This document shows positions 1 through 54,261 of a stretch of 64,000 nucleotides of DNA, piece after piece. Positions within the stretch are counted from its first letter, which is position 1. Each line of letters starts with the position of its first letter. The position numbers and the translations under genes are program-made. The notes below the pieces were generated by a model. The model saw only the letters and a list, made by a program, of their open reading frames with translations. It ran no database searches and was not told the DNA's origin. The stretch is from Candidatus Colivivens caballi (GTDB lineage Bacteria; Bacteroidota; Bacteroidia; Bacteroidales; Bacteroidaceae): NCBI GenBank assembly GCA_018065565.1, contig JAGHSZ010000060.1, positions 1 to 64,000 on the forward strand, read 5' to 3'.

Positions 1-228
1 GTGCGGTGGATAATTGCATCACGAGCGCTCGTAAATGCTCACGCGAGCGGTGGATAATTGAAAAAGGTGTACACCTTCCTGCGAAAAGGTGTACAGCAAA
101 CCTGGAAAAGGTGTACACGAAAATTCAAGAAGGTGTACACCTTTTTTAATTTATGAGCGCTCGTGAAGGAAAACATGAGCGCTCGTGAGAGAAAACACGA
201 GCGGTCGTGAGGGAAAACATGAGTGGAC
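1..228. repeat. 22-bp grid palindrome array 1
   Basis: Core units with the palindrome GGTGTACACC, or a near match, start at 66, 88, 110 and 132, exactly 22 bp apart. Units centred on GAGCGCTC or variants start at 23 and 45 on the left and at 155, 177, 199 and 221 on the right. Their centres continue the same 22-bp grid (48.5, 70.5 ... 136.5, 158.5). A degenerate unit may lie at 1-8. The second core unit reads GGTGTACAGC and the third GGTGTACACG; the two outer ones are perfect. The array may extend left of the window. Confidence 0.9.
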
Positions 229-448
229 CTTCTCCCAACTGTACCCTCCCAATCCCTCCCTTTTCAGAGTGGTGGAATGAAAACATCCAGCGACCCAAGG
301 CGCCGCGTTGCTTGCTATTGGGCTATGGGCACTGCGTGGCTGCCCTTTCAGGGCGAAATATATAAACTTTCTTGCGTCCGTGTTCCTCCAAACACACCCT
401 TCGACTCACTTTTCCTTATTATTATTAATGAGTTTGAGAATAAATGCT

Positions 449-456
449 TAACTTTG
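449..456 (+). promoter_or_regulatory. possible -7 element for nadB
   Basis: TAACTTTG matches the Bacteroidetes -7 consensus TAnnTTTG and lies 36 bp before the chosen nadB start. No clear TTTG -33 box is seen at the expected 19-20 bp spacing, so this is a weak call. The remaining sequence from 229 to 448 shows no gene or structure I can name. Confidence 0.3.
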
Positions 457-492
457 TGCCGTAATTTCACTATAGAACCCACCTGTAGAGTC

Positions 493-2082: not shown

Positions 2083-2191
2083 GGGATTCTTAAAAAAACT
2101 TCAATTTTATTGTAGTTATTTCATCATCATTGCGTCTAACTGATAAAAGACTAAACAAAATCAAGTTCAAAATAAGTATTAATTAGTAACA

Positions 2192-5097: not shown

Positions 5098-5100
5098 AAT

Positions 5101-6875: not shown

Positions 6876-7154
6876 TTATGAATTTTTAAGCACCGCGAGA
6901 ATGTCGTTCTGACGCATAATGAGATACTTGACACCTTCGTATTCCAGTTCTGTGCCTGAGTATTTGCCGTAGAGCACCTGGTCGCCCACTTTGAGGACCA
7001 TTTCCTCGTCCTTTGTACCGTTGCCAACAGCAACAACTTCACCCTTCAGAGGTTTCTCCTTTGCAGTGTCAGGGATGATGATACCGCCGATAGTTTTTTC
7101 TTCAGCCGGTGCAGGAAGTACGAGCACGCGGTCAGCTAATGGTTGAATGTTCAT
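6876..7154 (-). CDS. groES: co-chaperonin GroES (Hsp10)
   Basis: This 92-residue lid protein of the GroEL chamber starts [12 protein letters not shown], as usual for the family. The mobile-loop region [18 protein letters not shown], which contacts GroEL, is intact. The C-terminal half [20 protein letters not shown] is canonical. It is the first gene of the groES-groEL operon. The 750 bp upstream, up to the divergent methyltransferase gene, hold no other gene, only the split palindrome and repeat array 2. I did not find a convincing promoter motif for groES. Confidence 0.97.
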
Positions 7155-7204
7155 AAATTTTGATTGTTTAGTTATTTGGTAGTTTTTGTTATTGAGTCAT
7201 TTAA

Positions 7205-7223
7205 CCCAAATCGTTCATTAGCG
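7205..7223. repeat. left arm of split groESL-flanking palindrome
   Basis: CCCAAATCGTTCATTAGCG matches the left arm of the intact element at 5101. Its partner arm lies at 7395-7412, so about 170 bp separate arms that are 10 bp apart in the intact copy. Confidence 0.6.
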
Positions 7224-7382
7224 TTATGATGACCGAATGACTGAATGTCATGAGGTTTGCGACGACTCGGCGTTTATGCCGACAAAGGAGTTTTTTAGCA
7301 GATGTATTGCCGGTTTGAGGGCGCAATGGGGTTCCATTGTAACCGAGAAGCGACATTACAGATGACGAAAAGAAGGCTTGTC

Positions 7383-7416
7383 AGCGCGTAACAGCCTAAT
7401 GACCGATTTGGGTTTA
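7383..7416. repeat. right arm of split groESL-flanking palindrome
   Basis: AGCGCGTAACAGCCTAATG followed by ACCGATTTGGG matches the loop and right arm of the element at 5101-5146. AGCG stands on both sides of the extra 7225-7382 segment (7220-7223 and 7383-7386), as a target duplication might, but four bases can match by chance. Confidence 0.6.
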
Positions 7417-7454
7417 ATGCCCAGCAAGGGGAAATTTGTTGTCTTTCCCTTAAC

Positions 7455-7705
7455 GAGCATTGATGTTTCCCTTAACGAGCATTGATGTTTTCCCTCGCGA
7501 GCGCTGATGTTTTCCTTCGCGAGCGCTGATGTTTTCCTTCGCGAGCGCTCATAAATAATAAAAAGGTGTACACCTTCTTGACATTTGGTGTACACCTTTT
7601 TCTGGAATGCTGTACACCTTTTTTCGGTAAGGTGTACACCTTTTTGTATTATCGTCCGCTCGATAGACCATTTACGAGCGCTCGAAAAGACATTTGTCTC
7701 CGCTC
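7455..7705. repeat. 22-bp grid palindrome array 2
   Basis: Left GAGCGCTC-type units start at 7455, 7477, 7499, 7521 and 7543. Core GGTGTACACC-type units start at 7565, 7587, 7609 and 7631. Right units start at 7654, 7676 and 7698. All steps are 22 bp between centres except the left-to-core junction, which is 23. The array lies in the divergent gap between groES and the RsmF-like gene. Its core reads as the reverse complement of the core of array 1: the third unit, GCTGTACACC, corresponds to the second unit of array 1. Confidence 0.9.
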
Positions 7706-7797
7706 GTGAGAGAAAATAGTTGTTGGAGGTAGGCACTGCTGTGCAGCGGTGTAGTTAGCGGTGACATATGCCGACAACCCGATTTATTCTGTAACTC

Positions 7798-14553: not shown

Positions 14554-15414
14554 TTATGGGTGCGCAATGATGGCATTGCGGCAGTCCTCCATAAGCCATT
14601 TAGGTGTGCTTGTTGCTCCGCAGATGCCTACTGACTGTGCTTCATTGAACCATGAGAAATCGATTTCGTCCACGCTGTCGATCATGTGCGAACGCTGGTT
14701 GACTGCAAGGCATTCGCTGAACAGCACTTTGCCGTTCGAACTTTTTTTGCCCGAAACGAACAGGATGACATCGTGATGCTCGGCAAATTCGCGGATGCGT
14801 GGCATTCGGTTGGCTACCTGTCGGCAGATGGTATCGAAATAGTTGAATACCGCACCATTCTGCATGTGACTTTCGATGTAACTGACTATTTCGCGGAAAC
14901 CTTCGAGCGACTTTGTGGTTTGTGAGTAGAGCTGGATGTCTTTGGAAAAATCGAGTTGCTGTGCGTCTTCGAGTGTCTCGATGACAATGGCTGTACCCTC
15001 GGTCTGACCAACCAGACCAACTACTTCTGCATGTCCGTTCTTGCCATAGATGACAATTTGTTTCTTGTGAAGGTTGTCGGCATCGTAGTCGGCTTTGATG
15101 CGCTTCTGCAAATGCAGCACAACGGGACATGTGGCATCGATGATTTCGATGTTCTGCTTTGCTGCCTGTATATATGTCGAAGGCGGTTCACCGTGGGCAC
15201 GGAGCAGGAGTTTCGTGTCGTGAACTCGACTGAGGTTTTCCTTGTCAACAGTGATGAGCCCCAGTTCGTGCAAGCGTTCACATTCGCGTCCGTTGTGTAC
15301 GATGTCGCCGAGGCAATAGAGGGGCTGTGCCTGTGCCAGTTCCTCTTCGGCTGCCTTGATGGCGCGTGTCACTCCGTTGCAGAATCCGCTTCCGCTGTCA
15401 ATCTCGATTAGCAT
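14554..15414 (-). CDS. ispH: 4-hydroxy-3-methylbut-2-enyl diphosphate reductase
   Basis: This is the last enzyme of the MEP isoprenoid pathway. It reduces HMBPP to IPP and DMAPP with a [4Fe-4S] cluster. The three cluster cysteines are visible: Cys12 in GSGFCNGV, one in DATCPVV near residue 95, and one in GICGATSTP near residue 262. The histidines in LLRAHGEPPS and GKNGHAEVVG, typical of the substrate pocket, are present. The 286-residue length is normal. It follows cmk and porQ in the same direction; an 89-bp heptad-repeat gap separates it from cmk. Confidence 0.96.
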   Translation of the reverse strand: MLIEIDSGSGFCNGVTRAIKAAEEELAQAQPLYCLGDIVHNGRECERLHELGLITVDKENLSRVHDTKLLLRAHGEPPSTYIQAAKQNIEIIDATCPVVLHLQKRIKADYDADNLHKKQIVIYGKNGHAEVVGLVGQTEGTAIVIETLEDAQQLDFSKDIQLYSQTTKSLEGFREIVSYIESHMQNGAVFNYFDTICRQVANRMPRIREFAEHHDVILFVSGKKSSNGKVLFSECLAVNQRSHMIDSVDEIDFSWFNEAQSVGICGATSTPKWLMEDCRNAIIAHP

Positions 15415-15426
15415 GGGGGTATTGGC

Positions 15427-15517
15427 TTAGGGTTTAGAGATTAAAGCTTAGGGTTTAGAGATTAAAGCTTAGAGTTTAGAGTATAGGGCTTAGAGTATAG
15501 GGTTTAGAGGTTAGAGA
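15427..15517. repeat. heptad simple repeat TTAGRGN
   Basis: Thirteen consecutive 7-bp units (TTAGGGT, TTAGAGA, TTAAAGC and variants) also show a 21-bp higher-order period in the first half. The tract fills the gap between cmk and ispH and runs into the 3' end of cmk, so the cmk stop codon (15504-15506) and its last two or three codons lie inside the repeat. Confidence 0.9.
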
Positions 15518-16250
15518 CCTCTCCACTCTCCACTATAAGCTCTTCACTATTCTGTATTGTCTCGTTGAACATTTTCAGTAGCAACTGGTTCTGCTCGTCG
15601 ATGGTGAGGTCGCTGTTGTCGAGTACACGTGCATCGTCGGCTTGACGCAGAGGATTCATCTCGCGGTGGGAGTCGATGTAGTCGCGTTCCTGTACATTTT
15701 TGAGAATCTCGTCAAAGTCGAGGTTCTGTTCGCCTTTCTCTTGCAGTTCGAGGAAACGGCGGCGGGCACGGACTTCTGCCGATGCAGTGACGAATACTTT
15801 GAGTTCTGCCTGTGGAAATACTGCGGTACCGATGTCGCGTCCGTCCATGACGATACCTTTCTTTTCACCCATTGCTTTCTGCTGTACCGTCAGTTTTTCG
15901 CGGACAAACGGCAATGCTGCAATTGGACTGACAAGGCTCGACACCTCCATACCGCGTATTTCTTTCTCGACGACTTCTCCGTTAAGGCATGCCAATGGCA
16001 GGTTGGTGTCGGGGTCGAGAGTGAAACTGATTTCTGCTTTGTCGAGTGCTTCTTTCAGACCGTCTTGGTCGATCTTTGCATCGGAGGTGATAAGGCCGTT
16101 GCGCATTGCAAACAGCGTGATGGTGCGGTACATGGCACCTGTATCTACATAGATGTAGCCAACTTGTCGAGCCAGCCATTTTGCCATAGTGCTTTTGCCG
16201 CAAGATGAATGACCGTCGATGGCTACGATTATTTTGCCTTGATTGCTCAT
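15504..16250 (-). CDS. cmk: cytidylate kinase
   Basis: The 248-residue NMP kinase phosphorylates CMP and dCMP for nucleotide synthesis. The P-loop GHSSCGKST spans residues 13-21. YVDTGAMYR, the CMP-binding insert region and DGRDIGTAVFP are all canonical, as is the lid segment with paired arginines (RARRRFLEL). The C-terminus runs about 15-20 residues past the usual end and terminates inside a heptad repeat. The stop codon and last residues (SNL) are thus repeat-derived, while the catalytic domain is intact. It lies 24 bp downstream of porQ. The grouping of porQ, cmk and ispH suggests a shared transcript. Confidence 0.96.
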   Translation of the reverse strand: MSNQGKIIVAIDGHSSCGKSTMAKWLARQVGYIYVDTGAMYRTITLFAMRNGLITSDAKIDQDGLKEALDKAEISFTLDPDTNLPLACLNGEVVEKEIRGMEVSSLVSPIAALPFVREKLTVQQKAMGEKKGIVMDGRDIGTAVFPQAELKVFVTASAEVRARRRFLELQEKGEQNLDFDEILKNVQERDYIDSHREMNPLRQADDARVLDNSDLTIDEQNQLLLKMFNETIQNSEELIVESGEVSNL

Positions 16251-17219: not shown

Positions 17220-17244
17220 ATGTAATGGACTTGGAGTTTATGGG

Positions 17245-17307
17245 TTAGAGCTTGGAGGTTAGGGTTTAGAGGTTAGAGCTTAGAGGTTAGAGTTTAGAGT
17301 TTAGAGT
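17245..17307. repeat. heptad simple repeat TTAGAGN
   Basis: Nine perfectly phased 7-bp units (TTAGAGC, TTGGAGG, TTAGGGT, TTAGAGG, then mostly TTAGAGT) lie in the gap between porQ and meaB. The same unit makes up the tract at 15427-15517, on the other side of porQ-cmk. Confidence 0.9.
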
Positions 17308-17351
17308 TCTCTTCACTCTCATCTCTCATCAATCAAGCCAAAATGGCCCTA

Positions 17352-20013: not shown

Positions 20014-21390
20014 ATGTTTACCAAACAAACTTACATCAATCGTCGCCAGACCCTCAAAGAGAAGGTCGGCAGTGGCATCATCCTGATATTCGGACATAAT
20101 GATGCTCCGGCAAACTATCCTGCTAATGCCTATAAGTTCCGTCAGGACTCGTCGTTCCTCTATTATTTCGGACAGCAACGCGATGGGCTCGTTGGAGTCG
20201 TTGATATCGACAACGACTGTGAATACCTCATCGGTGATGACATCGACATCGAGGACATCATCTGGACGGGTTTTGTACCTTCAGTTCACGACCTTGCCGA
20301 AGAGGTTGGAGTTGCTCATTCTGCACCAATGGCTCAGTTGGCTAAGCTCATCGAAGGCCGCCCAGAAGTACACTATCTGCCACCATGTCGCCATGACCTT
20401 ATGATTCAGATTGGCGACCTGCTTGGCATTCATCCGCTTCAGGTACGCGACAAGGCATCACTCCGTCTGATAAAGGCTGTGGTCGATATGCGTGCCGTGA
20501 AGACGACTGAGGAAATCGAAGAAATCGAGCGTGCCATGGCTATTGGCTACAAGATGCACACTACTGCCATGAAGGCTTGTCGTCCAGGAGTGACAGAGAA
20601 ATATATTGGAGGTCTGCTTGCCGGCATCGCTGAAAGTTACGGTTGCAAGGAGTCATTCCTCACCATTCTCACAATGCATGGCGAAATCTTCCATGGCGAT
20701 CCTTCGCTCCGTCCGCTCGAAGCCGGACGCCTGATGTTGTGTGATGCAGGTGCCGAGACTGTCAATAACTATTGCTCTGACAACACTCGTGTCACCCCAA
20801 TCAGTGGAAAGTTCTCTCCGCGTCAGCGCGACATATATAGCATTGTCGAAGCATGTCACGACCTTGTCATCGACCGTGCCTGCCCTGGCAAGAAGTGGAT
20901 GGATATGCACCTCGATGTGTGCCGATTGATGACTGACCGTTTGAAGGACCTCGGACTGATGAAGGGCAACACTGACGATGCAGTCGAGGCTGGTGCACAT
21001 GCCATGTTCCTCCAGCACGGACTTGGACATATGATGGGAATGGATGTACACGACATGGAAGGACTCGGACAGGTGTATGTCGGTTTCGATGATGAAGTCC
21101 GTCCTTCTACACAGTTCGGAACCAACTGCCTTCGTTGTGGCCGTCGCCTGCAACCAGGATTTGTTATGACCGATGAACCTGGCATCTATTTCATTCCTGC
21201 ACTCATCGACAAGTGGAAGGCAGAAGGTATGCACCGCGACTTCCTCTGCTACGACAAGATTGAGGAATACCGTGACTTTGGTGGTATTCGCCTTGAAGAC
21301 GATATACTCATCACTGACAACGGATGCCGTGTGCTTGGCGAACAAATCATTCCTTACCACATCGACGATGTAGAGGCATTCATCAGCTGA
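20014..21390 (+). CDS. Xaa-Pro aminopeptidase (M24B)
   Basis: The 458-residue dimetal peptidase removes the N-terminal residue from peptides with proline in second position. An N-terminal aminopeptidase P domain (about residues 1-140, with the FRQDSSFLYYFG block) precedes the pita-bread catalytic domain. The five metal ligands are visible: Asp and Asp in LCDAGAETVNNYCSDNTRV, His in HGLGHMMGMDVHD, Glu in MTDEPGIY and Glu in GIRLEDDILIT. It has no signal peptide, so it is cytosolic. The gene starts directly after an octad repeat, and no separate promoter was found. It may be cotranscribed with the MFS gene. Confidence 0.93.
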   Translation: MFTKQTYINRRQTLKEKVGSGIILIFGHNDAPANYPANAYKFRQDSSFLYYFGQQRDGLVGVVDIDNDCEYLIGDDIDIEDIIWTGFVPSVHDLAEEVGVAHSAPMAQLAKLIEGRPEVHYLPPCRHDLMIQIGDLLGIHPLQVRDKASLRLIKAVVDMRAVKTTEEIEEIERAMAIGYKMHTTAMKACRPGVTEKYIGGLLAGIAESYGCKESFLTILTMHGEIFHGDPSLRPLEAGRLMLCDAGAETVNNYCSDNTRVTPISGKFSPRQRDIYSIVEACHDLVIDRACPGKKWMDMHLDVCRLMTDRLKDLGLMKGNTDDAVEAGAHAMFLQHGLGHMMGMDVHDMEGLGQVYVGFDDEVRPSTQFGTNCLRCGRRLQPGFVMTDEPGIYFIPALIDKWKAEGMHRDFLCYDKIEEYRDFGGIRLEDDILITDNGCRVLGEQIIPYHIDDVEAFIS

Positions 21391-21445
21391 TAGATGTGGC
21401 ACTGTGGAAATGTAATGTATGACCACAAAACATAAATGCTTCATC

Positions 21446-21651
21446 GTGCGCTGATAAATGCTTTCACGAGCGCTCATGTTTTGTCTCACGAGCGCAGGAT
21501 ATTATAAAAAGGTGTACACCTTATTGGGAAAAGGTGTACAGCAAACGCCAGAAAGGTGTACACCAAAATTCAGAAAGGTGTACACCTTTTTATATTGTCC
21601 ACCGCACGATTGGCAATTTACGTATGCACGCGAGACAAAACATGAGCGCTC
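21446..21651. repeat. 22-bp grid palindrome array 3 (core flipped)
   Basis: Left GAGCGCTC-type units start at 21446, 21468 and 21490. Core units start at 21511, 21533, 21555 and 21577. Right units start at about 21600 (CACCGCAC), 21622 (degenerate) and 21644. All centres are 22 bp apart. The flanks run in the same direction as those of array 4, with the ACCGCACG arm on the right. The core reads in the opposite direction: its GGTGTACAGCAAACG second unit matches the reverse complement of array 4. Confidence 0.9.
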
Positions 21652-21738
21652 GTGCGGCAATCTTTGTAACGGTGCCTGAGTTAGTATGAAGTCCAGAAGA
21701 CATCGGCGTGTGGAGTGTAGGCCGGCTGAAAATACAAT

Positions 21739-21926: not shown

Positions 21927-24900
21927 TTATCGGGTCAACTGGAACTTCATGTTGATGCCGAAGTCAGCGTTTGTAGTAGGGTAGGATGATGAAGAAACGA
22001 GTGGCACATTCTTCTGCCAGTCGAGGAAACCGCTGACTGTGAGCAGACGGCTGAACTTGTAGTCGGCTGTGAGTTTCAGACTGTATGCCGTGCTTCCTGA
22101 TGTGGCTGTCGTAATGCCTGTCTGTATGTTGCGGTTGAGGGCGTTCTGCATACGATATGAGAAATCGACACGGAGGTTGAGGTCGTGGCTGACATCGCCT
22201 ACTTTCTTCGATTTCGAGTTGGTTGATGATGTTGATTTCTTCGACTCGGCATCACTGCTTTCGCTTGTGCCCTTCTTGTTTGATTTCTTTTTCGACTTCT
22301 TCTCTCCGCTCTGAATCTGCTTTGCTCCGAAGAGGTTGAGGTCGGTGATTTTGTATCCGAATCCGAGGACGATGTCGTCGGAATAGTTTTCGGTGAGTGC
22401 TACGCTTGTCATACTGAGGTTGAGTGCGCGGGTCTTGCGGAACTCAACTTTCGATGTGAGTCCGTTGAGGAAGGTGAGGTCGAGTCCGATGAGTGGTGAG
22501 AACGACTCGTTGATGCTGACGGTCGAAACATTGTACATCGAACTTGGTATTGGGTTGCCGTTGGTGACATCGAGGATGAAGCCCATGTCGCCCATGTATG
22601 ACATGTAGTTGGTGAATGAGTTGTAGGCTCCGACTGCATAGACACTCTTATATGAGTGGCGCAGGTTGACGCTCTTGAAATGGTTGGCAAACCATGGCAA
22701 CTTGCTCAGACCGCTGTAAGTGAGGCTCCAGTTTGGCAATATCTTGAGCAGTGACGGGAATATGCTTAAATCGACGCTGCTGGCATTGCCACCACAGTAG
22801 GCAGCGAGGAATGCCGGCACGAGCACATCGGCTGAGTACTGGTCAACACTTCCGTTTGCTGGGTCGTAAGGCTTGCCTTCAAACTGTCCGCCTGTGCCGA
22901 CAGGGTAGGTGGATGAGGCATACTTCTGTTCGAGTCTGCCCTGAACGGTGTGGATGTTTTTGAGGAACTGGTTGAACGGTTCGGAGTTGTAGTTGTTGTT
23001 GATGTCGCCACCTGACGCAAATGCACTCTTTATGGATATTGTGGTCATGTTGAAACTACCGCTTTCGGTGGTAGGCATTCCTACATACATGAACTGCATC
23101 TGACGTGAGCGGTTGAGCGTGCGGCTGGCGTTGAGGTCAATTTTGAAGTCGCGGATTGGCTCGAGTGTGGCACGGAGTTGGAGGTCCTCAGACGCATTGG
23201 TGCTGACTGGAGTGGTGATGTTGGAGTCGTTGTCCATGAGCCAACCGTTGCGCAGTGCCTTGTCAACATAGCTGTCGCCGATGGCACCGAATGCAAAGTC
23301 GAGTCCTGGCGAGAGCAGGCCGTTGACTGAACGCTGACCGAAGGCGTCACCGATTTCGGTACGGAAACCTGGCAGCGTCATGGCATAGGTGTTGCGGTAG
23401 GAGATGCTGGCGTTGCGTAAAAGCATCAGTCCACGGGCGATGACCTGTGCTGTGCGGTAGAGTGGGTTGTCGTCGAGCGGTTCCTTGGCTGTGACTGTCA
23501 CCTTGATTGGAATGGTGTCCTGGTTCTTGATGCGTATGGTGTTGGCATCGACCTTCTTGTAGCGGAGTTTGTATTCCTTCTTGCCGTCGCCGCTTGTAGC
23601 CTTGACGATGAGGCGCTTGGAGTTCTGTCCGTGCTTCACCTCAGTATAGGTGGAGTCGTTGAGCGTGATTTCCTTTGAATAGTTCTTCGACTTTGACTTG
23701 TTGAGCTTGTCTTTCTGTCGTCCTTTGGCTTCTTCTTCCTTTGCCTTGTCATCGGCATCCTTGCCGCCGGCTTTCTCCTTGTCGTCGGCTTCTTGAGGCA
23801 GTGTTGTGCCGTTCTTCAAAGCTTCTTTTTCAGCCTTCTTCTTGGCTTCTGCCTCAGCTTTTTCTTTCTTCTTTGCCTCGCGCTCGGCCTTGCGCTCTTC
23901 CTCCTTCTTCTTGGCTGCTGCGCTCTTGCTGCCGCTGCCTGAGAAACGCTTGTTGGCGTTGTCGAGGAACGGAATCTTCTTGTAGAGTGTCTCGAAGTTG
24001 ATGCGGCCATTGATGTTGAGCGAACGCTGAGTGTGGGCGGTGTGTCCGAGGGTGCGTCCGTCTTCCAGTTCGGTTCCACGATTCCATCCGTATGATGAGT
24101 TGTAACTGCCGTCGGCTGTTATCCAGTCGAGCAATGGTATCTTCTGGAACGGAACTGTGTAAGAGCCCTGGAATGTAGATGCGTAGGCGAGTGGACGGCC
24201 AAAGTGAAGCAGACTGTGCTTCACCGAGTCCTTCCATGCTTCGTACTCATCAGGATAGAGATCCTTGTTGATAACGGTGTATGGTTCTTCAATTTCGGCA
24301 TTGGTGGCTGAGTTGTAAGAAAGGCGGAGCGACTTAAAGATGTCCCATTGTAGATTGAGCTGGCGGTTCCACAGGAACTGTTCGGAGAAGACCACTGGCA
24401 ACTGTGTGCCTGCGTCGATGTCGCGTTCCTGGAATTCGTAGTAACTGCGTGTGATATCGGTGTTGAACGACAACGACTGTGGCAGGTAGTTGAGGTTCTG
24501 CGCCTTGATGATGTCGAGCCATTTCGACTTGCCTTTCAGGTTCTTGAATGGTTCCCATGTCTCGTACTTTGGTGCATACTTATATGCGAAGTTTGCCTTC
24601 CAGTTCTCGTCGTTCTCATAGACGGTTGTCTCGCCCTGGCGATAGCGCTGGCTATAAGAGTAACTGAGTGAGAAGTTTGCTGGGTCGAAAGGCATAGGTG
24701 TGCGGCTGGCATAGTTGGAGCGCCAGTTGCTGAGCGAGAAGTTCTTGTTCTTTGTGAGTGTTTCGGTCAGACTGCTGAGTGAGTCGCGTTCGGACTGGGT
24801 TTCACATTCGTCAAGAGCGTCCTTTAAGAGCATGTCGGTGTCGAATGGATTGTACTTTGGCGAAATCTTCTGCCATGAATATGAGTAATAGACTGGCAGG

Positions 24901-27900
24901 TTGAGTTTCATCTTGTCAGAGAACAGACGGCCGAGGTCGAAGTTGGTGGTGATGCCCCACTCATAGAGGTTGTCGTCGCGGCGTGATGACACTCCTTCTT
25001 CGAGTCCTCCGTAACCCGCAGTTTCGATGTGTCCCTTCAAATTGACGCTTCCGAGGTCGGATAGGTGCAGGCTGAAGTTTCCCTGTGCAGCATAGCCGCC
25101 TTCGTTGTTGTAGTCCTTGAGGCGCAGCTCGTTGACCCACACTTCGACCGAGTTGGTCTTGCGTCCGTTGTTTCTCACACCGATCATCATGGTCTTGACT
25201 TCTCCGAGTGAAGGGTTACCCATGACACTCACCTTGTTGCTTGGACGGTCGGGGTCGTAGTCGTAGAACAACTGTGTGTAACTTGCTGCTCCCATAGCCT
25301 TCTGCTTGTTGCGCTCGTGCTTCAGACGAGTGAATATGTCGAAGTCGATGTCGAGCATATTCTCCTCTGGCCATACTGCTTCACAACCACTTGATGTGTA
25401 TGTGTCGTAGTGACCTTCTGGGGTGAGTTTCAGTGGTATTTCGTATTCGTAGTAGTTGCTCTTGTAGTCGCTACCAATACGGATGAACACGCTCATCTGG
25501 TTGTCCTGCAATTCATAGTCACCTTGAAGGGCATTTGCGTGGATAAACATCTGGATGTGGCGGTACTTGCGAAGGTCTTCGTTGAGTGTCTGATAGACGG
25601 CACGGGCATCACCAGTTGCCAAATCCTCAACTGTGATGGAGAGTGCCTGCTCGTTGCTCTGTGTGAGTTGTGGCTGGTTAGGGTCAACGATTCGTGAAAT
25701 GCCTGGAGGCAGTACATAGTTGACAGGAGTCTTGTCGTTGTTTTCCTCGATGTTGACGGCTGCAGTGTGTACCTTGCCACTGACACTTGGTTTGTCGCCG
25801 GTGTAGAGCATCTGGTTGTAGTTGCGCCATTCTCCGTGGACGAGGTCGAGCGATGCAAATCGCAGCACGACTGGCTGCTCAAACTCTGTGAGATACATAC
25901 GCATGAAGCGGATGCTGCTGAAGTCGTTGATGTCGCCGACCTTCTTGTCGAATTCATCTATTGGAATGCGGAACTGATACCATGTGGCTTCCTCTGTTTG
26001 CCCATTGCGCAGTTTCACGCTTGTACGGCGTTCATCGACGATGTGGTTGTGACCAATCTGGAGGTCTTCTGGACGAATACTGATTGCGTAGTCGAAGAAG
26101 TTCTCGTACTCGTTCATTGTGTAGTCCTGGTTGACATCTTCGACATCAGGTGTTGTCTTGTATGCAGTGCTGTAAGTCTCACCGCTTTCGTCAGAGTTTG
26201 GTGAGTTGCCTTCAGGGTTGTTGATGTACTTGTAACGGTCGAGTATGGACTTTTCTTCCCTGTCGTAGTCGGAACCACGGAAGTAGTGGTAGTTGTCGGA
26301 TGCAGGGTCGCGTGCAATGGAGTCGTAGGATGCTGTGTTCAGGTTTTTCGATTTCATGGCTTCAAGGAACTCGGCATAGGCACCATATGTCTTTTCGTCT
26401 GCACTTGACAGACCGTTGAGACCGAGGTCCTGCTTTGGTCGTGCACCACCTTCGTTGCTGAATGAATATACCACACTCTTTTCCGATGGCACTCGTCCCC
26501 ATACGGTTTCAGCATAGGTTGAAGCGTTGTTGACTGGCATTCCACTTTCGTAGTATTTCTTTCCGTCCTTGAGCACATCTTCACTGATGTCGCCGAGGTT
26601 GAAGTGCAATGTACCTCCATAGCGCTTGCCGTCGTTCTTCTGACGGTCGTAGATGAATGGGTCGAGCAGCCAGAATTCGATGTACTGCACATTTGATGTC
26701 TCGAAGTCGCTGGTCTCAATCTTTCGCGTCATACCGCCCCATCGCTTTTCTGGGTGACTGAGGTGACCGTATTCGTCATTGATATCAGGGTCGAGGTTGT
26801 AAGGACCACGCTCGTTTGGATAGTATGCTACATTGAGGATTGGCAGTGTGTTGCTTTCTCCAGAATTGTAGTCGCGGTTTGGATAGACTTCACGCACATA
26901 GACCTCACGCACATAGTGGTTTGACAACTGGTCGAGGTCGCCTTTCAAGTGACCAGGTGTGAGTGAAGAACTGCGACGGGTGAACAGTGGATCGATGTTG
27001 TACCATGCGAGTCGTGCTCGGTTGTAACCATTGCGGATGTCGTTGGTGGCATCTCCGAATTCAAGATTGTAAGGGGTGGAACTGAGTGTCCATGCACTTG
27101 GAGTGCTGACATCGACTCCGCTCTTAACATTCTCAAAGTCGTCGAGGTAGGAGGCATTGCCCTGTACGCCCTTGGCATTGCCTGCAATGAGTTGTGCAAA
27201 TTCGGCACTGAAGTTGATGCTTGAAGGTTGGGTGACATTAATGAGTGGTAACTTGTCGATGAGGTTGGTGAGCCACTGGCTCTGTGCCTTCCAGTTGATG
27301 TTAAGTCCCCAGATGGTGTTGTTGAGAGGTTCCTCGCCCTTGCGTACTTTTGTGGTGAGTGGCTGTTCGCTCAGTCGCATGTAGGTACCGCCAAACTGGA
27401 GGTTCTTTGAGAAATCGTAATCCCAGTTGACACCTAACATGGTCTTTCGCATCATAGAGTAGTTGGTCTGATCCTCGGTGCTGACATTGATGTTGGTGCC
27501 TGCATCGATGATGCTCTGATTGATGATTTTCACAATACCTTCACGGTAGTTGACGGTATAGTCGGAACCTTCTTGCAGAGTCACGCCACCAGCTGTCACA
27601 ACAACAGATGTGGCATAAGGTGGAATCTCAATCTCATTTCCTGATGTGGCTTTGACCTCTCCGGTCAATGTGAACTTGTTCTTCTCTGCCACTTGCTTTG
27701 CGACGGTCTTTGTTGAATCGTAGAGCTCATCATAGCAGTATTTGTCAGCCCATGCATCGTTGCCGAGTTTCTGACGCATCCAGTCGCCGAATGGTTCAAC
27801 AACAGGGAATATGATGCGTGCCGACGAGGCGTCAGCAGTGTAACCTTCGATGTAGTCGAACTTTCCGTTCGGATTAGTTTTCTGGTTGTCGTCCAGACGG

Positions 27901-35654: not shown

Positions 35655-37463
35655 TTACGGTTGGTCAGCCGTGTCGGCCGAAGCCGGTGCGTTGTTGGTT
35701 GCTTTGGTTGAGTCAACAGGAGGTGCCACTGCGCTGGTGGCAGTCTGTTTGATGTCGGCAATCTGCAACTGAACTTCGCCGCGCTTGTAGATGTTTTCTT
35801 CGATTGTATAGACAATGTCGAACGACTGTTTTGTCTTGATGTATCGTGCCTGTGAACTTTGTCCGAATGCAATGCCGTTCATCACATTGCTTGAATTGGA
35901 ATCGACCAGTTCGAGTTTTATGTGTTCCTGTTCACGGCCGACCACCTTGCTGGTTCCGTAGTCATAGACCTGACGGGTGCAGAACACCGGCTTCGGGTTG
36001 TCAGGACCGAATGGGCGCATGCGTTTCAGGTCGTTGTGGAACTTATTGGTGATGTCACGGAAGTGGATTTCTGCATCGATGTCGAGGGTTGGAAGGGTTG
36101 TCTCGTGATTGATGTTGTTTGCTACATATTCCGTGAAGCGGCTGGTGAATTTGTCGATGTTTTCCACCTTCATTGACAAGCCGGCAGCGTAGGTGTGACC
36201 GCCAAAGTTGTCGAGCAGGTCGCGGCACTGTTCGATGGCTTTATAGACATCAAAACCTGTGACGCTGCGAGCAGAACCCGTCACTTCGTCGCCAGTGCGT
36301 GTAAGTACTACTGCTGGGCGATAGTAGAGTTCGGTGAGGCGTGATGCCACGATTCCGATGACGCCTTTATGCCATGACTCGTTGTAGATGACGATAGCGC
36401 TGCTTTCCTTTTTGTCGTCGAGTTCGTAGATGGTCTTGACCAGCTGGCTTGCCTCTTCGGTCATCTTCTTGTCGAGTTCCTTTCGCTCGTCGTTGTACTG
36501 GTCGATCTGCTGTGCCATGAGCATTGCTGTGTCTTCGTCGTGCTCAATGAGCAGCGACACCGACTCCTTGCCGTTCTGCACACGGCCCGAGGCATTGATG
36601 CGTGGACCAATTTTGAAGATGATGTCGTTCATGTGGATGTCCTTGTCGGAGAGTCCACACACATTGATGATGGCCTTGACACCAGTTGACGGATTGTTGT
36701 TGAGCTGCTTGATGCCGTGGAATGCCAGGATGCGGTTTTCCCCGATGATTGGCACAATGTCGCTGGCGATGCTGATGACCACAAGGTCGAGCAGCGGAAT
36801 GAGTTTGCTGAATGCAATGCCATTGCTGAGGGCAAAAGCCTGCATCAACTTGAATCCGACACCGCATCCCGAAAGGTTCTTGTCGGGGTATGTCGCATCT
36901 TCGCGCTTGGCGTTGAGGATGGCGACGGCTGGTGGGAGGACTTTGTCGGGCACATGGTGGTCGCAGATGATGAAGTCGATGCCGAGTGTCTTGGCATATG
37001 CGATTTCATCATTGGCCTTGATGCCACAGTCGAGAATGATGATGAGTTTGACTCCTGATTCGGCTGCATACTCTATTCCTTTTCTTGACACTCCGTAGCC
37101 TTCGTCGTTGCGGTCGGGAATGTAGTAGTCGATGTTGGAATAGAACTGTTGCAGGAAACGATAGACCAGTGCCACTGCCGTACATCCATCAACATCGTAG
37201 TCTCCGTAGATGAGTATTCGCTCCTTCTTGCCCATTGCTTCGTTCAGACGCTCCACTGCCAGATCCATGTCGGTCATCAGGAACGGGTCGTGAAGGTCGT
37301 GAAGTTGTGGTCGGAAGAACCGTCGTGCCTCGTCTTCGGTGGTGATGCCTCTGCGGATGAGCATACGGGCCAGCACAGGACTGATGTTCACACCCTCAGC
37401 CAGATGCTGGGCTGCTGTCTGTTCCTGTTCGGTCGGAGCCACATAGTTCCATTTGTAATTCAT
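35655..37463 (-). CDS. recJ: single-stranded-DNA-specific exonuclease RecJ
   Basis: The 602-residue DHH-family 5'-3' exonuclease trims single strands in recombination and mismatch repair. Motif I GDYDVDG (residues 87-93), motif III CDHH near 165 and the downstream DHHA1 domain with GGHTYAAGLS supply the metal site. A C-terminal OB-fold region contacts DNA. The last 30 residues are Ala/Pro/Thr-rich and probably disordered. It is the first gene of the run recJ-recQ-TPR-DAHP synthase-trpS. A possible -7 element (TAACTTTG) lies at 37552-37559. Repeat array 4 lies further upstream. Confidence 0.96.
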   Translation of the reverse strand: MNYKWNYVAPTEQEQTAAQHLAEGVNISPVLARMLIRRGITTEDEARRFFRPQLHDLHDPFLMTDMDLAVERLNEAMGKKERILIYGDYDVDGCTAVALVYRFLQQFYSNIDYYIPDRNDEGYGVSRKGIEYAAESGVKLIIILDCGIKANDEIAYAKTLGIDFIICDHHVPDKVLPPAVAILNAKREDATYPDKNLSGCGVGFKLMQAFALSNGIAFSKLIPLLDLVVISIASDIVPIIGENRILAFHGIKQLNNNPSTGVKAIINVCGLSDKDIHMNDIIFKIGPRINASGRVQNGKESVSLLIEHDEDTAMLMAQQIDQYNDERKELDKKMTEEASQLVKTIYELDDKKESSAIVIYNESWHKGVIGIVASRLTELYYRPAVVLTRTGDEVTGSARSVTGFDVYKAIEQCRDLLDNFGGHTYAAGLSMKVENIDKFTSRFTEYVANNINHETTLPTLDIDAEIHFRDITNKFHNDLKRMRPFGPDNPKPVFCTRQVYDYGTSKVVGREQEHIKLELVDSNSSNVMNGIAFGQSSQARYIKTKQSFDIVYTIEENIYKRGEVQLQIADIKQTATSAVAPPVDSTKATNNAPASADTADQP

Positions 37464-37559: not shown

Positions 37560-37824
37560 CGCATTTTTTGTGAAATGGTAACTATCGCGAGGGCTAAAAC
37601 TGCATTTTTTATCTATGATAAAGCATGAAAGAATGCATATTGCCGTTTTGAGGGTCTGTTTTTTGTGGGCGGTGAAATGCACCGCATGGTTGAGGACTGC
37701 CTGTGAGGAACTGTGCCGGCAGCATTCCGACACCCTCTTTTCATGCTGCAAAGTGCATGTGAAGGGGTGTATGCCATCGGTCTGTACATTCTTGCGGCAT
37801 ATCCCAAAAAACAAATGTCTTTAC

Positions 37825-38030
37825 GAGCGCTCGTAAATGCCTTGACGAACGCTCATGTTTTCCCTCACGAGCGCTCGAAGATTGAAAAAGGTGTACACCT
37901 TACGAAATTTTGGTGTACACCTTTCTGTCGTTTGGTGTACACCTTTTTTCAGGAAGGTGTACACCTTTTTCAATTATCGACCGCACGATTTACAATTTAT
38001 GAGCGCTCGTGAGATAAAACATGAGCGTTG
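37825..38030. repeat. 22-bp grid palindrome array 4
   Basis: Left GAGCGCTC-type units start at 37825, 37847 (GAACGCTC) and 37869. Core GGTGTACACC units start at 37890, 37912, 37934 and 37956, and all four palindromes are perfect. Right units start at 37979 (GACCGCAC), 38001 and 38023 (GAGCGTTG). Every centre-to-centre step is 22 bp. This is the cleanest copy and a good reference for orientation: the whole array reads as the reverse complement of array 1. It lies between recJ and the DUF2807 gene. Confidence 0.93.
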
Positions 38031-38054
38031 GTGTGGCAATCCTGATGTATAACA

Positions 38055-38141: not shown

Positions 38142-39014
38142 TTAGATAACTTTCTTTGCGTGGAGATGCTTGGTGGTGATAAGTCCCAGTGCGCTTTTGC
38201 CACGGATGAGCTGGTCGGCATTGCCTTCGATTTCGATTTCTCCGCTGCCTGTTGATTCGACGGAAATCTGCTTGCAGTCCACTTCGAGGTCGATGTCGCC
38301 AGCACCTTGTGACATTGCCTTGATGGTGTCGGCCTGTATGTCGCAGTCGATGTCGCCTGCGCTGGTAGCTGAGAAGTCAGCATATTTCACGCCTGACACT
38401 TTGCGAAGGTCAATGTCGCCTGCGCCTGATGTTTCAGCCCACAGGTTGCTGGCTGTGAGCCGGCGCACCTTGACATCGCCTGCACCCGTGCATGAGATGT
38501 TGATGTTTCCGCATGTGATGTCGTTGAGGTCGATGTCACCGGCTCCCATGCTCAATATCTTGATGTCGCCGAATGTGGTGCCGTTGTGAGTGTCGAAGTC
38601 GCCTGCACCAGAGATGCTGATGAACGAGAGTGTTGGTGCATAGACATAAAGGCGTATGCTTGGCACTTCCCTCAGACCTTTCGATTCGTTGCCTGTCGCC
38701 ACGAGTGTCGGTTTCTTGTCGAACTCCATTGGATTCTCAATGTTGAAACTATATTCATCGATGGCTTTCTCGTTGCCCTTTGCTACCACTTTGAAAGTGT
38801 CGCTCTGTATGTAAACGATGTTGACATTTGCGTCCGACTCAATGTTCACAAAGTCCTTCATGTCGTACTCTTTTGTAGTGACTTCACCCCAGTACTTTGA
38901 GTTGCGGTATTCGTCGTCGAGGTCCTCTCGTCTGTCGCATGCTATGCACGAACTGACGATAATCGATAGCAATGTAGATGCTGCTATTGCTTGTACAGTC
39001 ATTGATCTTTTCAT
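38142..39014 (-). CDS. DUF2807 (head-GIN) envelope protein
   Basis: The 290-residue exported protein has a signal peptide ending in a Cys-containing segment (SSCIACD), so it may be a lipoprotein. From about residue 130 a G-A-G-D-I/F/V motif recurs every 21-22 residues (GAGDFD, GAGDID, GAGDVK, GAGDID, SAGDID, GAGDID, GSGEIE), each with short strands between. This is the DUF2807 fold, a right-handed beta-helix-like stack often annotated as 'auto-transporter adhesin head GIN'. Its role is unknown. It lies 66 bp after the GntR gene at the end of the ABC operon, which suggests envelope-stress or transporter-linked expression. Confidence 0.85.
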   Translation of the reverse strand: MKRSMTVQAIAASTLLSIIVSSCIACDRREDLDDEYRNSKYWGEVTTKEYDMKDFVNIESDANVNIVYIQSDTFKVVAKGNEKAIDEYSFNIENPMEFDKKPTLVATGNESKGLREVPSIRLYVYAPTLSFISISGAGDFDTHNGTTFGDIKILSMGAGDIDLNDITCGNINISCTGAGDVKVRRLTASNLWAETSGAGDIDLRKVSGVKYADFSATSAGDIDCDIQADTIKAMSQGAGDIDLEVDCKQISVESTGSGEIEIEGNADQLIRGKSALGLITTKHLHAKKVI

Positions 39015-49834: not shown

Positions 49835-49971
49835 CACCCGAAAACCAGTTTTGTGGCTTGACAGCATAGCCGCTTGGTCGTTTGGACAGTTGTACCGATT
49901 ACCAGTGGCAAACAAATTAGATAGGAGTTGTCGTTGAAAGCATTTTGCTTGCAATTCATGACTTCTGCAAA

Positions 49972-50058
49972 GGAAGGATGGCAGAGTGGTCGATAGCGCT
50001 GGTCTCGAAAACCGGTAAACGGGTAACTGTTTCGGGGGTTCGAATCCCCCTCCTTCCG
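49972..50058 (+). tRNA. tRNA-Ser (anticodon CGA)
   Basis: The acceptor arm GGAAGGA pairs with TCCTTCC. The anticodon stem CTGGT/ACCGG holds loop CTCGAAA with anticodon CGA, which reads UCG. A long variable arm (AAAC...GTTT), typical of serine tRNAs, and a T-arm GGGGG-TTCGAAT-CCCCC follow. Its 3' end is duplicated directly downstream. Confidence 0.95.
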
Positions 50059-50160
50059 CAGACTGCGAGTCGAAGGAACAGGGGATAGATGAAATCAATC
50101 CCCCTCCTTCCGCAGACTGCGAGTCGAAGGAACAGGATAGATGAAATCAATCCCCCTCCG
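50043..50160 (+). repeat. tandem duplication of the tRNA-Ser 3' end
   Basis: A unit of about 52-54 bp starts inside the tRNA (AATCCCCCTCCTTCCG), runs through GCAGACTGCGAGTCGAAGG and ends before the next AATCCCCCTCC. It occurs at 50043 and 50097, with a partial third copy at 50149. The first copy has two extra G residues. Only the first copy belongs to a complete tRNA. Confidence 0.92.
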
Positions 50161-50230
50161 TTGTTATTAAAGAACTAAAAAACATGAACAATAATTCAAA
50201 TAAATAATAACCCTAAAAACTAAGAAAACT

Positions 50231-50656: not shown

Positions 50657-50687
50657 TAAATCAGTAGTTTTATAGCAAAGTAGTTGA

Positions 50688-50727
50688 GGAGTTAAGTAGG
50701 AGGGATGCTTTCTACTTAACTCCCTTT
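50688..50727 (+). terminator. hairpin after mscL
   Basis: GGAGTTAAGTAG pairs perfectly with CTACTTAACTCC around a 12-base loop and is followed by CTTTGAC. The stem is strong, but the T-run is only three bases. A transcription end between mscL and panC is plausible. Confidence 0.5.
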
Positions 50728-50787
50728 GACTACATTTACCATAACTCCTAAACTGCTTAATAAATTTTTTAAACTCACTCGAAATAA

Positions 50788-51651: not shown

Positions 51652-51995
51652 TGCAAATTGAAGTATTAAAGTCGAAACTACACTGTGTCCATGTCACCGA
51701 GGCAAACCTCAACTACATGGGAAGCATCACCATCGATGAAGACCTTATGGATGCGGCCAATCTGATTGCTGGCGAGAAGGTGCAGGTGGTCGATAACAAC
51801 AATGGTGAACGATTCGAGACATATATAATAAAAGGTGAACGCGGATCGGGATGCATCTGCCTCAATGGTGCTGCTGCCCGAAAAGTCCAGGTGGGCGATG
51901 TTTGCATCATCATCTCCTATGCCTTGATGGACTTCGAGGAGGCGAAACAGTTCAAACCATCTGTCGTGTTCCCTGATGCAGAAAATCATCTTTAA
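51651..51995 (+). CDS. panD: aspartate 1-decarboxylase (pyruvoyl)
   Basis: The 114-residue proenzyme makes beta-alanine from aspartate. Self-cleavage between Gly24 and Ser25 (NYMGSITID) creates the pyruvoyl cofactor. The surrounding residues and the later [18 protein letters not shown] block match the family. It overlaps panC by one base. Bacteroidetes lack PanZ, so cleavage is presumably spontaneous here; this is an inference. Confidence 0.96.
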
Positions 51996-52171
51996 GACAA
52001 TATGAAATGAACCATCGGTCAAATGCAGTGTGCCTGCAGACGACTGATGGTTTTTTGTTTTTTGCAGTCAAAGGTGCGCAAGCGCTTTTCTCTGGACATT
52101 ACTACCAGCGTGTGGTGTCAACCGTACACTTACAAGATTGTTTGTGCAGTTCTAATCAAACAAATTACTTC

Positions 52172-53851
52172 ATGAAGAAAACCATTCTTTTTATTGTGGC
52201 TTTTGTTGTGTTGACCCTTAATGCTCAATCACAGCAACCACGCTCGTTCCGTTTTTTTGCCGATCCAACCAATCCCGATGCTCACGACCCAGTGATGGCA
52301 CGCTGCGATGGTCGTTACTATCTTTTCACTACTGGCATTGGTTGCCTCACATCCACCGACTTGCTCAATTGGCAGCAGGGACCGCGGGTAATGCCTGTTG
52401 CGCCCCAGTGGACATCGGATGCCGTTCCCGGATTTCGTGGCGACTGCTGGGCACCAGATATCCTGTATCACGAAGGTCTGTGGTATATGTATTACAGTTG
52501 CTCTACATTCGGCAAAAATGGATCAGCCATTGGATTGATGACTAACCGGACTTTGAACCCAGAATCGCCAGACTATAAGTGGGAAGACCAGGGCATGGTG
52601 GTACGGAGTGAACAGGGCAAGACCAACTGGAACGCTATCGACCCCAATGTTGCTGTTGACGAAAAAGGTCGCCCGTGGCTGGTTTGGGGCTCGTTCTGGG
52701 ATGGCATACAGATGGTTCAGCTTGACAAAAAAGACTTTCGCACCCTGAAAGGGCATCCGAAGACTGTGGCACGCCGATACATGCGTAACAGCAAATCGCA
52801 ACTTGTATCGGAGGAGGACCTGAAACGCGCCAGTGAAGCGCCTGATGCCGGTGCAAATGCCATCGAGGCTCCGTTCATCATTCATGAAGGTGGTTACTAT
52901 TACCTTTTTGCATCGTGGGATTATTGCTGCAAGGGCGTGAACAGCAACTACAAGACTGTGGTTGGCCGCTCGCGACGCATCCAGGGCCCGTATCTCGACC
53001 GTGAAGGCAAAGACATGGCTGAGGGTGGGGGAGGAATCGTTGCCCAGCGTGATGAACAGTTCTATGGAATTGGTCACAATGCGGCATATAAGTTCGATGG
53101 CAACTGGATTTTCATAGCTCATGGTTACAGCCGTATGGACAATGGCGCTTCAAAGTTGGTCGTCCGCCGTATGACTTTCGATGCCGATGGATGGCCGGTG
53201 CTTGGTGAACGCATCCAACGCGACCCACTGGCAGGTAAGACCTTCAATGTCATAGGTGACAGTTATGTGGCAAACCACCGTCGGGACAAGGCGGAGACAT
53301 GGCACGCAAAACTTGCTGCACATCATGCCATGCCATACAACAATTACGGCAGAAATGGTGGCTGTGTGGCATTCGACCGTACAAGCGAACGCTTCGGCCC
53401 ATCGCTTGTTGACCGCTATGCGGCAATGGACTCATCTGCTGATATAGTGCTGATTGTTGCAGGACATAATGATGCCGTCAAGATTGGCAACAGTGCCGAC
53501 TCTCTCCTCATATTTGAACGACAACTCGATTCCCTTCTCGTCGGTATCAGCCGGCATTGCCCTAAGGCGCAGATAGGATATGTCACACCATGGTACATTG
53601 ACATACCTGGTTTTGCCTCTGTCGTTGCCAGCATCCATAAGGTGTGCGACCGCCATGGTGTGCCCGTTCTTGACAACTATTCCGACCGCTCCGTAATTAA
53701 GGTCCGTGACGATGACTTCCGTCGTCGCTATTTCCAGTCGGCTAACGACAATGCCCATCTCAATGCCGCAGGGCACGACCTTTTCCTCGCAACTGGTGAA
53801 ACATTTGTGCGCAGGCTGGCAGTGATGACCGAGATGAAGGCACATCAGTAG
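52172..53851 (+). CDS. exported GH43 arabinosidase-like enzyme fused to an SGNH hydrolase
   Basis: The 559-residue protein has a signal peptide (residues 1-20, cut near NAQS). A five-bladed GH43 glycosidase domain (about 25-350) follows, with the general-base Asp39 in AHDPVM, Asp158 in IDPNV and acid Glu232 in IEAPF. GH43 enzymes of this type act on arabinan or xylan side chains. After a short hinge, residues about 356-550 form an SGNH/GDSL esterase domain: GDSY (Ser364), GRNGG, GHND (431-434) and a C-terminal DNAH with Asp526 and His529. The frame opens upstream to 52007, but the ATG at 52172 precedes the signal peptide. There is no SusC/D pair nearby. A combined sugar-chain and acyl-ester cutter is inferred. 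Confidence 0.87.
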   Translation: MKKTILFIVAFVVLTLNAQSQQPRSFRFFADPTNPDAHDPVMARCDGRYYLFTTGIGCLTSTDLLNWQQGPRVMPVAPQWTSDAVPGFRGDCWAPDILYHEGLWYMYYSCSTFGKNGSAIGLMTNRTLNPESPDYKWEDQGMVVRSEQGKTNWNAIDPNVAVDEKGRPWLVWGSFWDGIQMVQLDKKDFRTLKGHPKTVARRYMRNSKSQLVSEEDLKRASEAPDAGANAIEAPFIIHEGGYYYLFASWDYCCKGVNSNYKTVVGRSRRIQGPYLDREGKDMAEGGGGIVAQRDEQFYGIGHNAAYKFDGNWIFIAHGYSRMDNGASKLVVRRMTFDADGWPVLGERIQRDPLAGKTFNVIGDSYVANHRRDKAETWHAKLAAHHAMPYNNYGRNGGCVAFDRTSERFGPSLVDRYAAMDSSADIVLIVAGHNDAVKIGNSADSLLIFERQLDSLLVGISRHCPKAQIGYVTPWYIDIPGFASVVASIHKVCDRHGVPVLDNYSDRSVIKVRDDDFRRRYFQSANDNAHLNAAGHDLFLATGETFVRRLAVMTEMKAHQ

Positions 53852-53879
53852 GGCAGCATTCTGACCACTTTGTCTTCGT

Positions 53880-54261
53880 GACCGCACATAAATCCTCAAA
53901 CGACCGCATGTATTTCCCTTATCCTGCGGAGGATAATATGAAAAGGTGTACATGTTGACTTCGTTTTTTGTACACATAGATATAAAAAGGTGTAGGAGTG
54001 TTTTCCGTTTGGTGTACACCTTTCTGAAAATAGGTGTACACCTTTCTGTGATTTGCTGTACAGCTTTTCAAGAAAAGGTGTACACCTTTTTATAAACATC
54101 ACCGTACGAAAAGGAAAATACGAGCGCTCGTGAGAGGATTCTCGTGCGCTCATGAGGGAATTCCTGTATGCTCGTTATGGATTTCTTGTGCGTTTGTTAT
54201 GGATTTCTTGTGCGTTTGTTATGGAATATTCCTGCGCTTATGAGAGAATTCTTGTACGCTC
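53880..54261. repeat. 22-bp grid palindrome array 5 (expanded)
   Basis: Seven core units start at 53945, 53967, 53989, 54011, 54033, 54055 and 54077, all exactly 22 bp apart. The first three are decayed (for example TTTGTACACA at 53967); the last four match the cores of the other arrays. Left GACCGCAC-type units lie at 53880 and 53902, and a degenerate one at about 53924. Right GAGCGCTC-type units at 54100, 54122, 54144, 54166, 54188, 54210, 54232 and 54254 keep the grid and become more degenerate outwards. It lies between the GH43 gene and the ilv operon. Confidence 0.9.

Follow-up and report, generated by a model that had tools for sequence, protein, structure and literature searches.

The window analysed here, a stretch of 64,000 nucleotides, opens contig C17 (JAGHSZ010000060.1) of the draft genome of Candidatus Colivivens caballi, which comprises 2.55 Mb in 168 contigs and is 84.7% complete. 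The gene content of the host includes sprA of the type 9 secretion system, located in the window, and ten SusC/RagA matches over the cut-off, and its GroEL is 87% identical to that of a Phocaeicola massiliensis record and 80% identical to that of a Prevotella. These features mark a member of the Bacteroidota, probably of the order Bacteroidales. Between the genes of the window lie five arrays of short palindromic units, which are the subject of this study. They are composed of core units of the GGTGTACACC type (A units) and flank units of the GAGCGCTC type (B units). A first-pass annotation had described these arrays as an exact 22-bp grid built from two perfect palindromes. All five were recovered at nearly the same positions, and the 22-bp steps were reproduced together with the single 23-bp step in array 2 (7542 to 7565). 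All 15 exact copies of GGTGTACACC and all 11 of GAGCGCTC in the window are located in the arrays or at most 60 bp away, against chance expectations, by base counting, of about 0.06 and about 1, respectively.

Arrays 1 and 3 run forward, and arrays 2, 4, and 5 run in reverse. Array 1 (1–229, + strand) has B units at 22 and 44, A units at 66, 88, 110, and 132, B units at 154, 176, and 198, and a decayed unit at 220; its core (61–146, +) consists of four GGTGTACACC-type units on the 22-bp grid. As the window begins at base 1 of contig C17, this array is truncated at the contig end. Array 2 (7455–7710, −; core 7560–7645, −) contains three clear B units, two decayed ones, four A units, and three further B units, with the one 23-bp step, and its neighbours are groES (6876–7154, −), named by its place beside groEL, and rsmF (from 7904, +). 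Array 3 (21437–21660, +; core 21506–21591, +) lies between two convergent genes encoding an M24 peptidase (20014–21390, +) and SprA (21927–29666, −), the translocon of the type 9 secretion system. Array 4 (37816–38035, −) is placed between the tandem genes recJ (35655–37463, −) and a DUF2807 gene (38142–38972, −), and its core (37885–37970, −) has four exact GGTGTACACC units at 22-bp steps. Array 5 (53879–54262, −), between a GH43 gene (ending at 53851) and ilvD (from 54576 according to the gene caller), has seven A-like units beginning at 53945, of which three are exact, together with a long, decayed B flank; its last four A units form the core (54006–54091, −).

Architecture and constraint of a genome-wide element

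The family was surveyed in the host genome with a sequence-only model of the core, which gave 153 matches on both strands (150 listed; 150 of 454 candidates scored). Merged by hand and together with one pattern match (C24:3098), they correspond to at least 84 arrays. Whether the arrays recur elsewhere in the genome and keep their spacing had been named in the first-pass annotation as a test of a functional family, and both proved to be the case: 83 exact GGTGTACACC pairs were found genome-wide, and copies outside the window keep the 22-bp pitch. A consensus scan of the window and 79 fetched stretches recovered 84 arrays, one per stretch. Furthermore, all 36 exact GAGCGCTC pairs of the genome sit at listed arrays, and this check by the flank motif is the one piece of evidence that bears on arrays missed by the core-model survey.

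In an ungapped stack of the 84 arrays, information extends from approximately −75 to +157 around the core, with almost none beyond. The element is thus about 230 bp long with sharp ends and comprises ten 22-bp units, namely three GAGCGCTC, four GGTGTACACC, and three inverted GAGCGCTC units. Three arrays with deviant cores (L100, L101, and L102) were omitted from the analysis of unit identity and offset (n = 81), and one cut by a contig end (L094) was omitted as well from comparisons of arm pairing, arm clustering, column counts, and identity (n = 80). The core is indeed made of palindromic units, yet it lacks symmetry as a whole, as GGTGTACAGC forms unit 2 in 60 of 81 copies, and therefore the element has a direction.

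Bases of the core palindromes depart from the consensus in 42 of 3,200 cases (1.3%), compared with 719 of 2,880 (25%) in the spacers of the A units, so that the palindromes are approximately 19 times less changed. No departure was seen in 45 of the 80 copies, and the maximum was three of 40 bases. Perfection of the two palindromes thus stands for the core but not for most flank units, many of which are degenerate (GAGCGGTC, GACCGCTC, and others). For the flank palindrome the term was overstated, as on the left side 474 of 1,894 palindrome bases (25%) depart from the consensus against 709 of 2,212 spacer bases (32%).

Spacing was examined in 412 kb of host sequence (the window and the 79 array-centred stretches). 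Among consecutive A-like sites with at most one mismatch and at most 120 bp apart, 229 of 239 distances are 22 bp, nine are 44 bp, and one is 66 bp; no distance of 21 or 23 bp between neighbouring A-like sites was found. The absence of one-base shifts despite many substitutions points to selection on spacing. When flank units were scanned from −6 to +6 around the grid, scores of at least 7 of 10 appeared solely on the grid itself (offset 0) or one base further out. The left units were at offset 0 in 47, 62, and 62 of 81 copies and at −1 in 5, 5, and 5, and the right units were at offset 0 in 47, 46, and 42 and at +1 in 27, 28, and 25; the remainder were weak or cut. A grid at exactly two helical turns, with core palindromes far better conserved than their spacers, would fit dimeric proteins bound on one face of the DNA, as had been suggested.

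The closest pairs of arrays, among the 14 closest listed, are 90–95% identical. Two pairs that are approximately 90% identical (L027/L028 and L024/L028) have unrelated flanks on both sides, and the pairs at 95% differ on the right, their left sides being cut by contig ends. Similar arrays in unrelated flanks indicate that the element was copied to new places as a unit. In 47 of the 84 arrays a flank matches the flank of another array, in all orientations, and a dispersed intergenic module (AACACAGAGAAGGTTT...CACATGGAGAGGACACTGAGT) is common to the flanks of L062, L067, L073, L026, and L102 in either orientation. Another of these flank modules, a dispersed repeat of about 217 bp (7202–7418 of the window), lies between groES and array 2, with 51 whole or partial matches in the genome, many at contig ends. 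It occurs on 14 contigs without a listed array and is therefore a separate repeat family.

Gene context, spacing, and related genomes

The intergenic placement noticed in the window was borne out, with none of 64 cores overlapping a called gene, in sequence with a called coding fraction of 0.77 (window and array-centred stretches; 0.89 in the window alone). These 64 arrays have called genes on both sides, of which 24 pairs are convergent, 15 divergent, and 25 tandem; the other 20 arrays, which have a called gene on one side at most, were unclassed. Array-free gaps of at least 100 bp in the same stretches comprise 54 tandem, 21 divergent, and 5 convergent gaps, a comparison biased by the array-centred stretches. 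The direction of transcription changes at 39 of 64 arrays compared with 6 of 38 gaps of the window (Fisher P 1e-5), and the non-tandem share of intergenic length in the window is about a third. The excess of convergent over divergent pairs (24:15) was not significant (P 0.20), while the direction of the element relative to tandem genes was 18:7 (P 0.04). The promoter −7 motif TAnnTTTG was not enriched (0.37 per kb in arrays versus 0.97 per kb in flanks).

The proposed recurrence every 7–16 kb holds locally but not genome-wide, where 21 gaps on the same contig ranged from 7.5 to 29.9 kb, and no two listed arrays of a contig are nearer to each other than 7.5 kb. In 16 of the gaps, both arrays lie more than 700 bp away from any contig end; the smallest of these gaps was 8.4 kb (P 0.00015), and their coefficient of variation was 0.33 (P 5e-5 versus uniform placement). 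Arrays are often near contig ends, and may thus break short-read assemblies. Over-dispersion was also seen in G024, a relative with a complete 3.7-Mb contig and palindromes of its own, in which one of 76 gaps was below 9 kb against approximately 13 expected, a value reached in none of 10,000 simulations. The survey of this genome gave 172 matches (150 listed; 150 of 508 candidates scored) at 76 places, where two copies that lie 138 bp from each other, next to an N, were counted as one. Its grids are built from AAACAATATTGTTT and CAAACACTTGTGTTTG and are embedded in longer dispersed repeats; some of the 10 copies compared (L210–L219) match over as much as about 580 bp. An outer module of approximately 105 bp is inverted at opposite ends in different copies.

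The GGTGTACACC pair was not found in any of 40 relatives sampled (16 from the genus, 8 other family members, and 16 from the order). Tandem arrays were then compared by period alone, counting arrays outside long open reading frames and scoring those with periods of 21–23 or about double. Twenty of 24 arrays in the family sample and 13 of 25 in the genus sample had such periods, where 3.6 and 3.8, respectively, are expected if periods 8–60 are equally likely. Two of the genus stretches (L127 and L143) were picked because an array had already been seen there, and later stretches of G024, G021, and G018 were taken after family arrays had been seen, yet at fixed intervals. All 13 such arrays found in 200 kb of Prevotella sp. 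oral taxon 299 have a period of 22 or 44, and most appear by eye to be built from GCANTGCTTTT-like units. Grids of 23 bp occur in loci of uncultured Bacteroides and Phocaeicola, and in one of them, a Bacteroides metagenome-assembled genome (MAG; L019, 767–960), four GGTATATACC-type units are followed by four GGTGTACACC units. The two unit types differ by a symmetric double change affecting both palindrome halves.

In the genome collection, a GGTGTACACC pair occurs in nine stretches, each time with a 23-bp spacing, and Isoptericola, Clostridiales, and Verrucomicrobia records account for one each; single pairs of a 10-base palindrome carry little weight, as chance can produce them. No blastn match to array 4 was found in plasmid and phage records, and no GGTGTACACC pair in viral contigs. 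The contig recorded as a Verrucomicrobia MAG (L017, 1250–1330) shows four GGTGTACACC-like units at 23-bp steps. In arrays with the 21–23-bp pitch, scores for palindromic symmetry, out of 8 pairs, modestly exceeded shuffles in the family (6.35 versus 5.24), the genus (6.00 versus 5.25), and the window (6.00 versus 5.01). A test of distances between palindromes that is independent of their sequence gave 9 counts at 22 bp and 11 at 44 bp in the window and no clear peak at 22 bp in the genus relatives (2 counts, where distances average 0.88), which speaks against a simple rule of perfect palindromes. Positional conservation was considered for arrays of other sequence upstream of rsmF in two genomes (G004 and G016) and dropped, as the neighbours differ and the number was judged to be within reach of chance.

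Other tandem repeats occur in these genomes. Heptamer-type repeats (TTTAGAG/CTCTAAA and similar, with periods of 14 and 21) are located at 15402–15523 and 17222–17320 of the window, in stretches L130, L137, L138, and L140, and in the genus relatives G006, G013, and G011. At 50019–50159 of the window, the 3′ part of a tRNA-Ser gene (49972–50059) is followed by a direct repeat of itself with a 54-bp period.

A proposed docking grid weighed against other explanations

Quite possibly, the element offers docking sites, arranged as a grid, to a dimeric protein that binds DNA sequence-specifically and would mark boundaries along the chromosome, a reading that we hold tentatively, with both binder and role predicted. 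It draws on the observed architecture, copy number, fixed spacing, near-invariant core palindromes, intergenic placement, and over-dispersion. We favour it because the pitch stays constant under changing sequence, the palindromes are near-invariant, the sites lie where transcription turns direction, and the arrays are over-dispersed. Neighbouring dimers would sit two helical turns apart, one per palindrome, and bind cooperatively along one face of the DNA, while the outer GAGCGCTC units may be weaker sites or sites of a second protein. The role would be architectural, such as a domain or transcription-unit boundary, or a platform comparable to a centromere or to bacterial interspersed mosaic elements (BIME). 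As the palindrome differs between species while the 21–23-bp pitch stays, the binder would co-evolve with its sites or read shape over sequence. A bolder version, to which we assign a distinctly low probability, is that Prevotella-like Bacteroidales might partition their chromosomes by an undescribed architectural system of over-dispersed grids, in which pitch and palindromic symmetry are conserved and the palindrome turns over with a fast-evolving binder, as eukaryotic satellite DNA does with its own.

Several observations weigh against the docking grid. No binding protein was identified, and the flank palindrome is only slightly better conserved than its spacers, by the left-side counts given above. 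The survey model contains the core palindrome, so that arrays with decayed cores or weaker arrays may be missed. Both spacing tests, in the host and in G024, are weakened because their surveys scored 150 of 454 and 150 of 508 candidates. The genome is a draft in 168 contigs, and 19 of 84 arrays lie at most 700 bp from a contig end. Over-dispersion itself could also arise from insertion exclusion, from weak arrays that were missed, or from recombination that removes copies lying close together, and the copying as a unit is also predicted for a mobile element. Among the relatives, one of three arrays in the order-level sample had a 21–23-bp pitch, 50 kb of Phocaeicola massiliensis contained no array of such pitch, and at least two of the counted period-21 arrays (L129 and L201) are heptamer or low-complexity runs. 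The same test found no tandem array of any period in 250 kb of E. coli, and this control therefore speaks to abundance and not to pitch. Palindromic symmetry is plain by eye in the host, G024, G015, oral taxon 299, and the Bacteroides loci, and is not proven for every array.

The strongest rival holds that the element is a non-autonomous mobile element resembling a miniature inverted-repeat transposable element (MITE), in the manner of BrickBuilt and PINSR (see below), with palindromes that serve its own mobilisation and no role for the host. Dispersal as a unit (2 of the 14 closest pairs with unrelated flanks on both sides) speaks for it, as do the flank blocks, which are imperfect inverted repeats of each other (on average 39.0 of 73 columns complementary), the intergenic position in dozens of copies with the GGTGTACACC pair in one of 41 genomes, and the long dispersed repeats that enclose the G024 grids. 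Nevertheless, target duplications of 4–9 bp showed no excess in 80 copies (observed/expected 65/67.7, 31/35.8, 9/12.6, 5/3.8, 2/1.3, and 0/0.5), and the stacked copies show no separate conserved terminus outside the units, a parent insertion sequence not having been sought directly. Moreover, dead copies should decay evenly, which the roughly 19-fold contrast between core palindromes and spacers does not reflect. We regard this explanation as somewhat unlikely, noting that it overlaps with the docking grid because the host may have come to use a mobile element. Mobilisation by a RAYT transposase, as in a system of repetitive extragenic palindromes (REP) and BIME, shares the clustered intergenic palindromes and is scarcely credible here. 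The host has only three Y1_Tnp matches, which score 21.6 to 29.7 bits (two exceed the cut-off), come from frames of 357–506 aa, and are all at least 8 kb from any listed array, so no RAYT gene was found near the arrays, and no GTAG or CGTC tag was seen by inspection at the ends of the stacked consensus.

Paired units could instead act in RNA, where hairpins at the ends of transcripts would serve as terminator, attenuator, or mRNA stabiliser. Both strands of array 4 and one strand of array 3 have folding energies far below those of shuffled sequences (z −14.5, −14.1, and −11.5), the core terminates in AAAAA...TTTTT, as a bidirectional terminator does, and convergent genes flank 24 of 64 arrays. 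However, such folds are expected of any set of palindromes, and selection on RNA structure, raised in the first-pass annotation, was not supported. Selected arm pairing should make the two arms of a copy match each other better than they match the arms of other copies. Flank arms were less complementary within than between copies (z −4.3 in 80 copies; outer third −0.1, middle −3.1, inner −5.1), as were spacers 1 and 3 (z −4.15), and 15 of the 64 arrays lie between divergent genes, which argues against a role at transcript ends. In a four-way clustering, arm types mostly pair with another type within a copy, which may reflect avoidance of long perfect palindromes (by deletion or assembly loss) or the polarity of the element. 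Unit 2 is an imperfect palindrome in 67 of 81 copies, the ratio of convergent to divergent pairs does not differ significantly from parity, tRNA alone reached Rfam gathering scores in the window, and we know of no role in RNA for a fixed pitch of two DNA turns. An RNA-level element thus appears improbable. A functionless minisatellite grown by replication slippage would account for tandem 22-bp units, for the variable number of flank units (array 5), and for tandem arrays of other periods in these genomes. It is nonetheless very improbable, as slippage would blur the four core units, which keep separate identities across copies (AGC in unit 2), neighbouring A-like sites show no 21- or 23-bp distance, and arrays of unrelated sequence keep the same pitch.

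Comparison with described repeats

A CRISPR array does not fit, as the 12-bp spacers come from a recurring set and are not unique. Plasmid centromeres of the sopC type consist of tandem units in helix phase, each an inverted repeat for a dimeric protein, and there is one array per plasmid, with a 43-bp unit and a known partition protein. The present grid resembles them in its tandem, helix-phased inverted repeats for a putative dimer and differs from their 43-bp unit and single array. Some REP/BIME elements bind gyrase or IHF, and they are not known to follow a fixed 22-bp grid. According to the part of the source consulted, those of enterobacteria are clustered intergenic palindromes tied to RAYT transposases (PMC12306157). 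The arrays are alike in the clustering of intergenic palindromes and unlike in that no RAYT was found near them.

The closest described repeats are PINSR of Prevotella intermedia and BrickBuilt of Porphyromonas gingivalis, and the portions of their descriptions that were compared show no such grid. BrickBuilt is described in the sections consulted as a lineage-restricted intergenic MITE in 19 copies, with IS5-like terminal inverted repeats, predicted stem-loops, and 1 to 22.8 direct repeats of one tandem 23-nt unit (PMC4596501). Its non-repetitive leader and tail resemble the longer G024 elements, while its GAGACC-type ends (Table 2 there) have no counterpart in the stacked copies by inspection (PMC4596501). 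The present element is unlike BrickBuilt in its usual 3-4-3 plan, two palindromes, and lack of a separate terminal repeat and of target duplication. PINSR, as far as its description was available, has a 188-bp intergenic consensus judged non-coding, with 177 and 184 copies in two strains, no terminal inverted repeats, occurrence in a small species group, and approximately three quarters of sites common to both strains. Both PINSR and the present element are thus intergenic, high in copy number, lineage-restricted, and without separate terminal inverted repeats, and by our own arithmetic the length of PINSR equals about 8.5 units of 22 bp. The available PINSR description reports no 22-bp grid, palindromes, or spacing, and the comparison is by description and not by sequence.

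Among the matches listed from the openly licensed literature (CC0, CC BY, and CC BY-SA), no GGTGTACACC arrays or 22-bp palindrome grid were described. In the literature found, dispersed Bacteroidales intergenic repeats have been described lineage by lineage (BrickBuilt and PINSR), with no plan that unites them. If a 21–23-bp palindrome grid with changing sequence is a rule that they share, it would tie these repeats together, give a bait for the binder, and open chromosome organisation to direct tests. On the comparison made, which for PINSR is one of descriptions, the element is a variant among the dispersed intergenic repeats of Bacteroidales, set apart by its grid.

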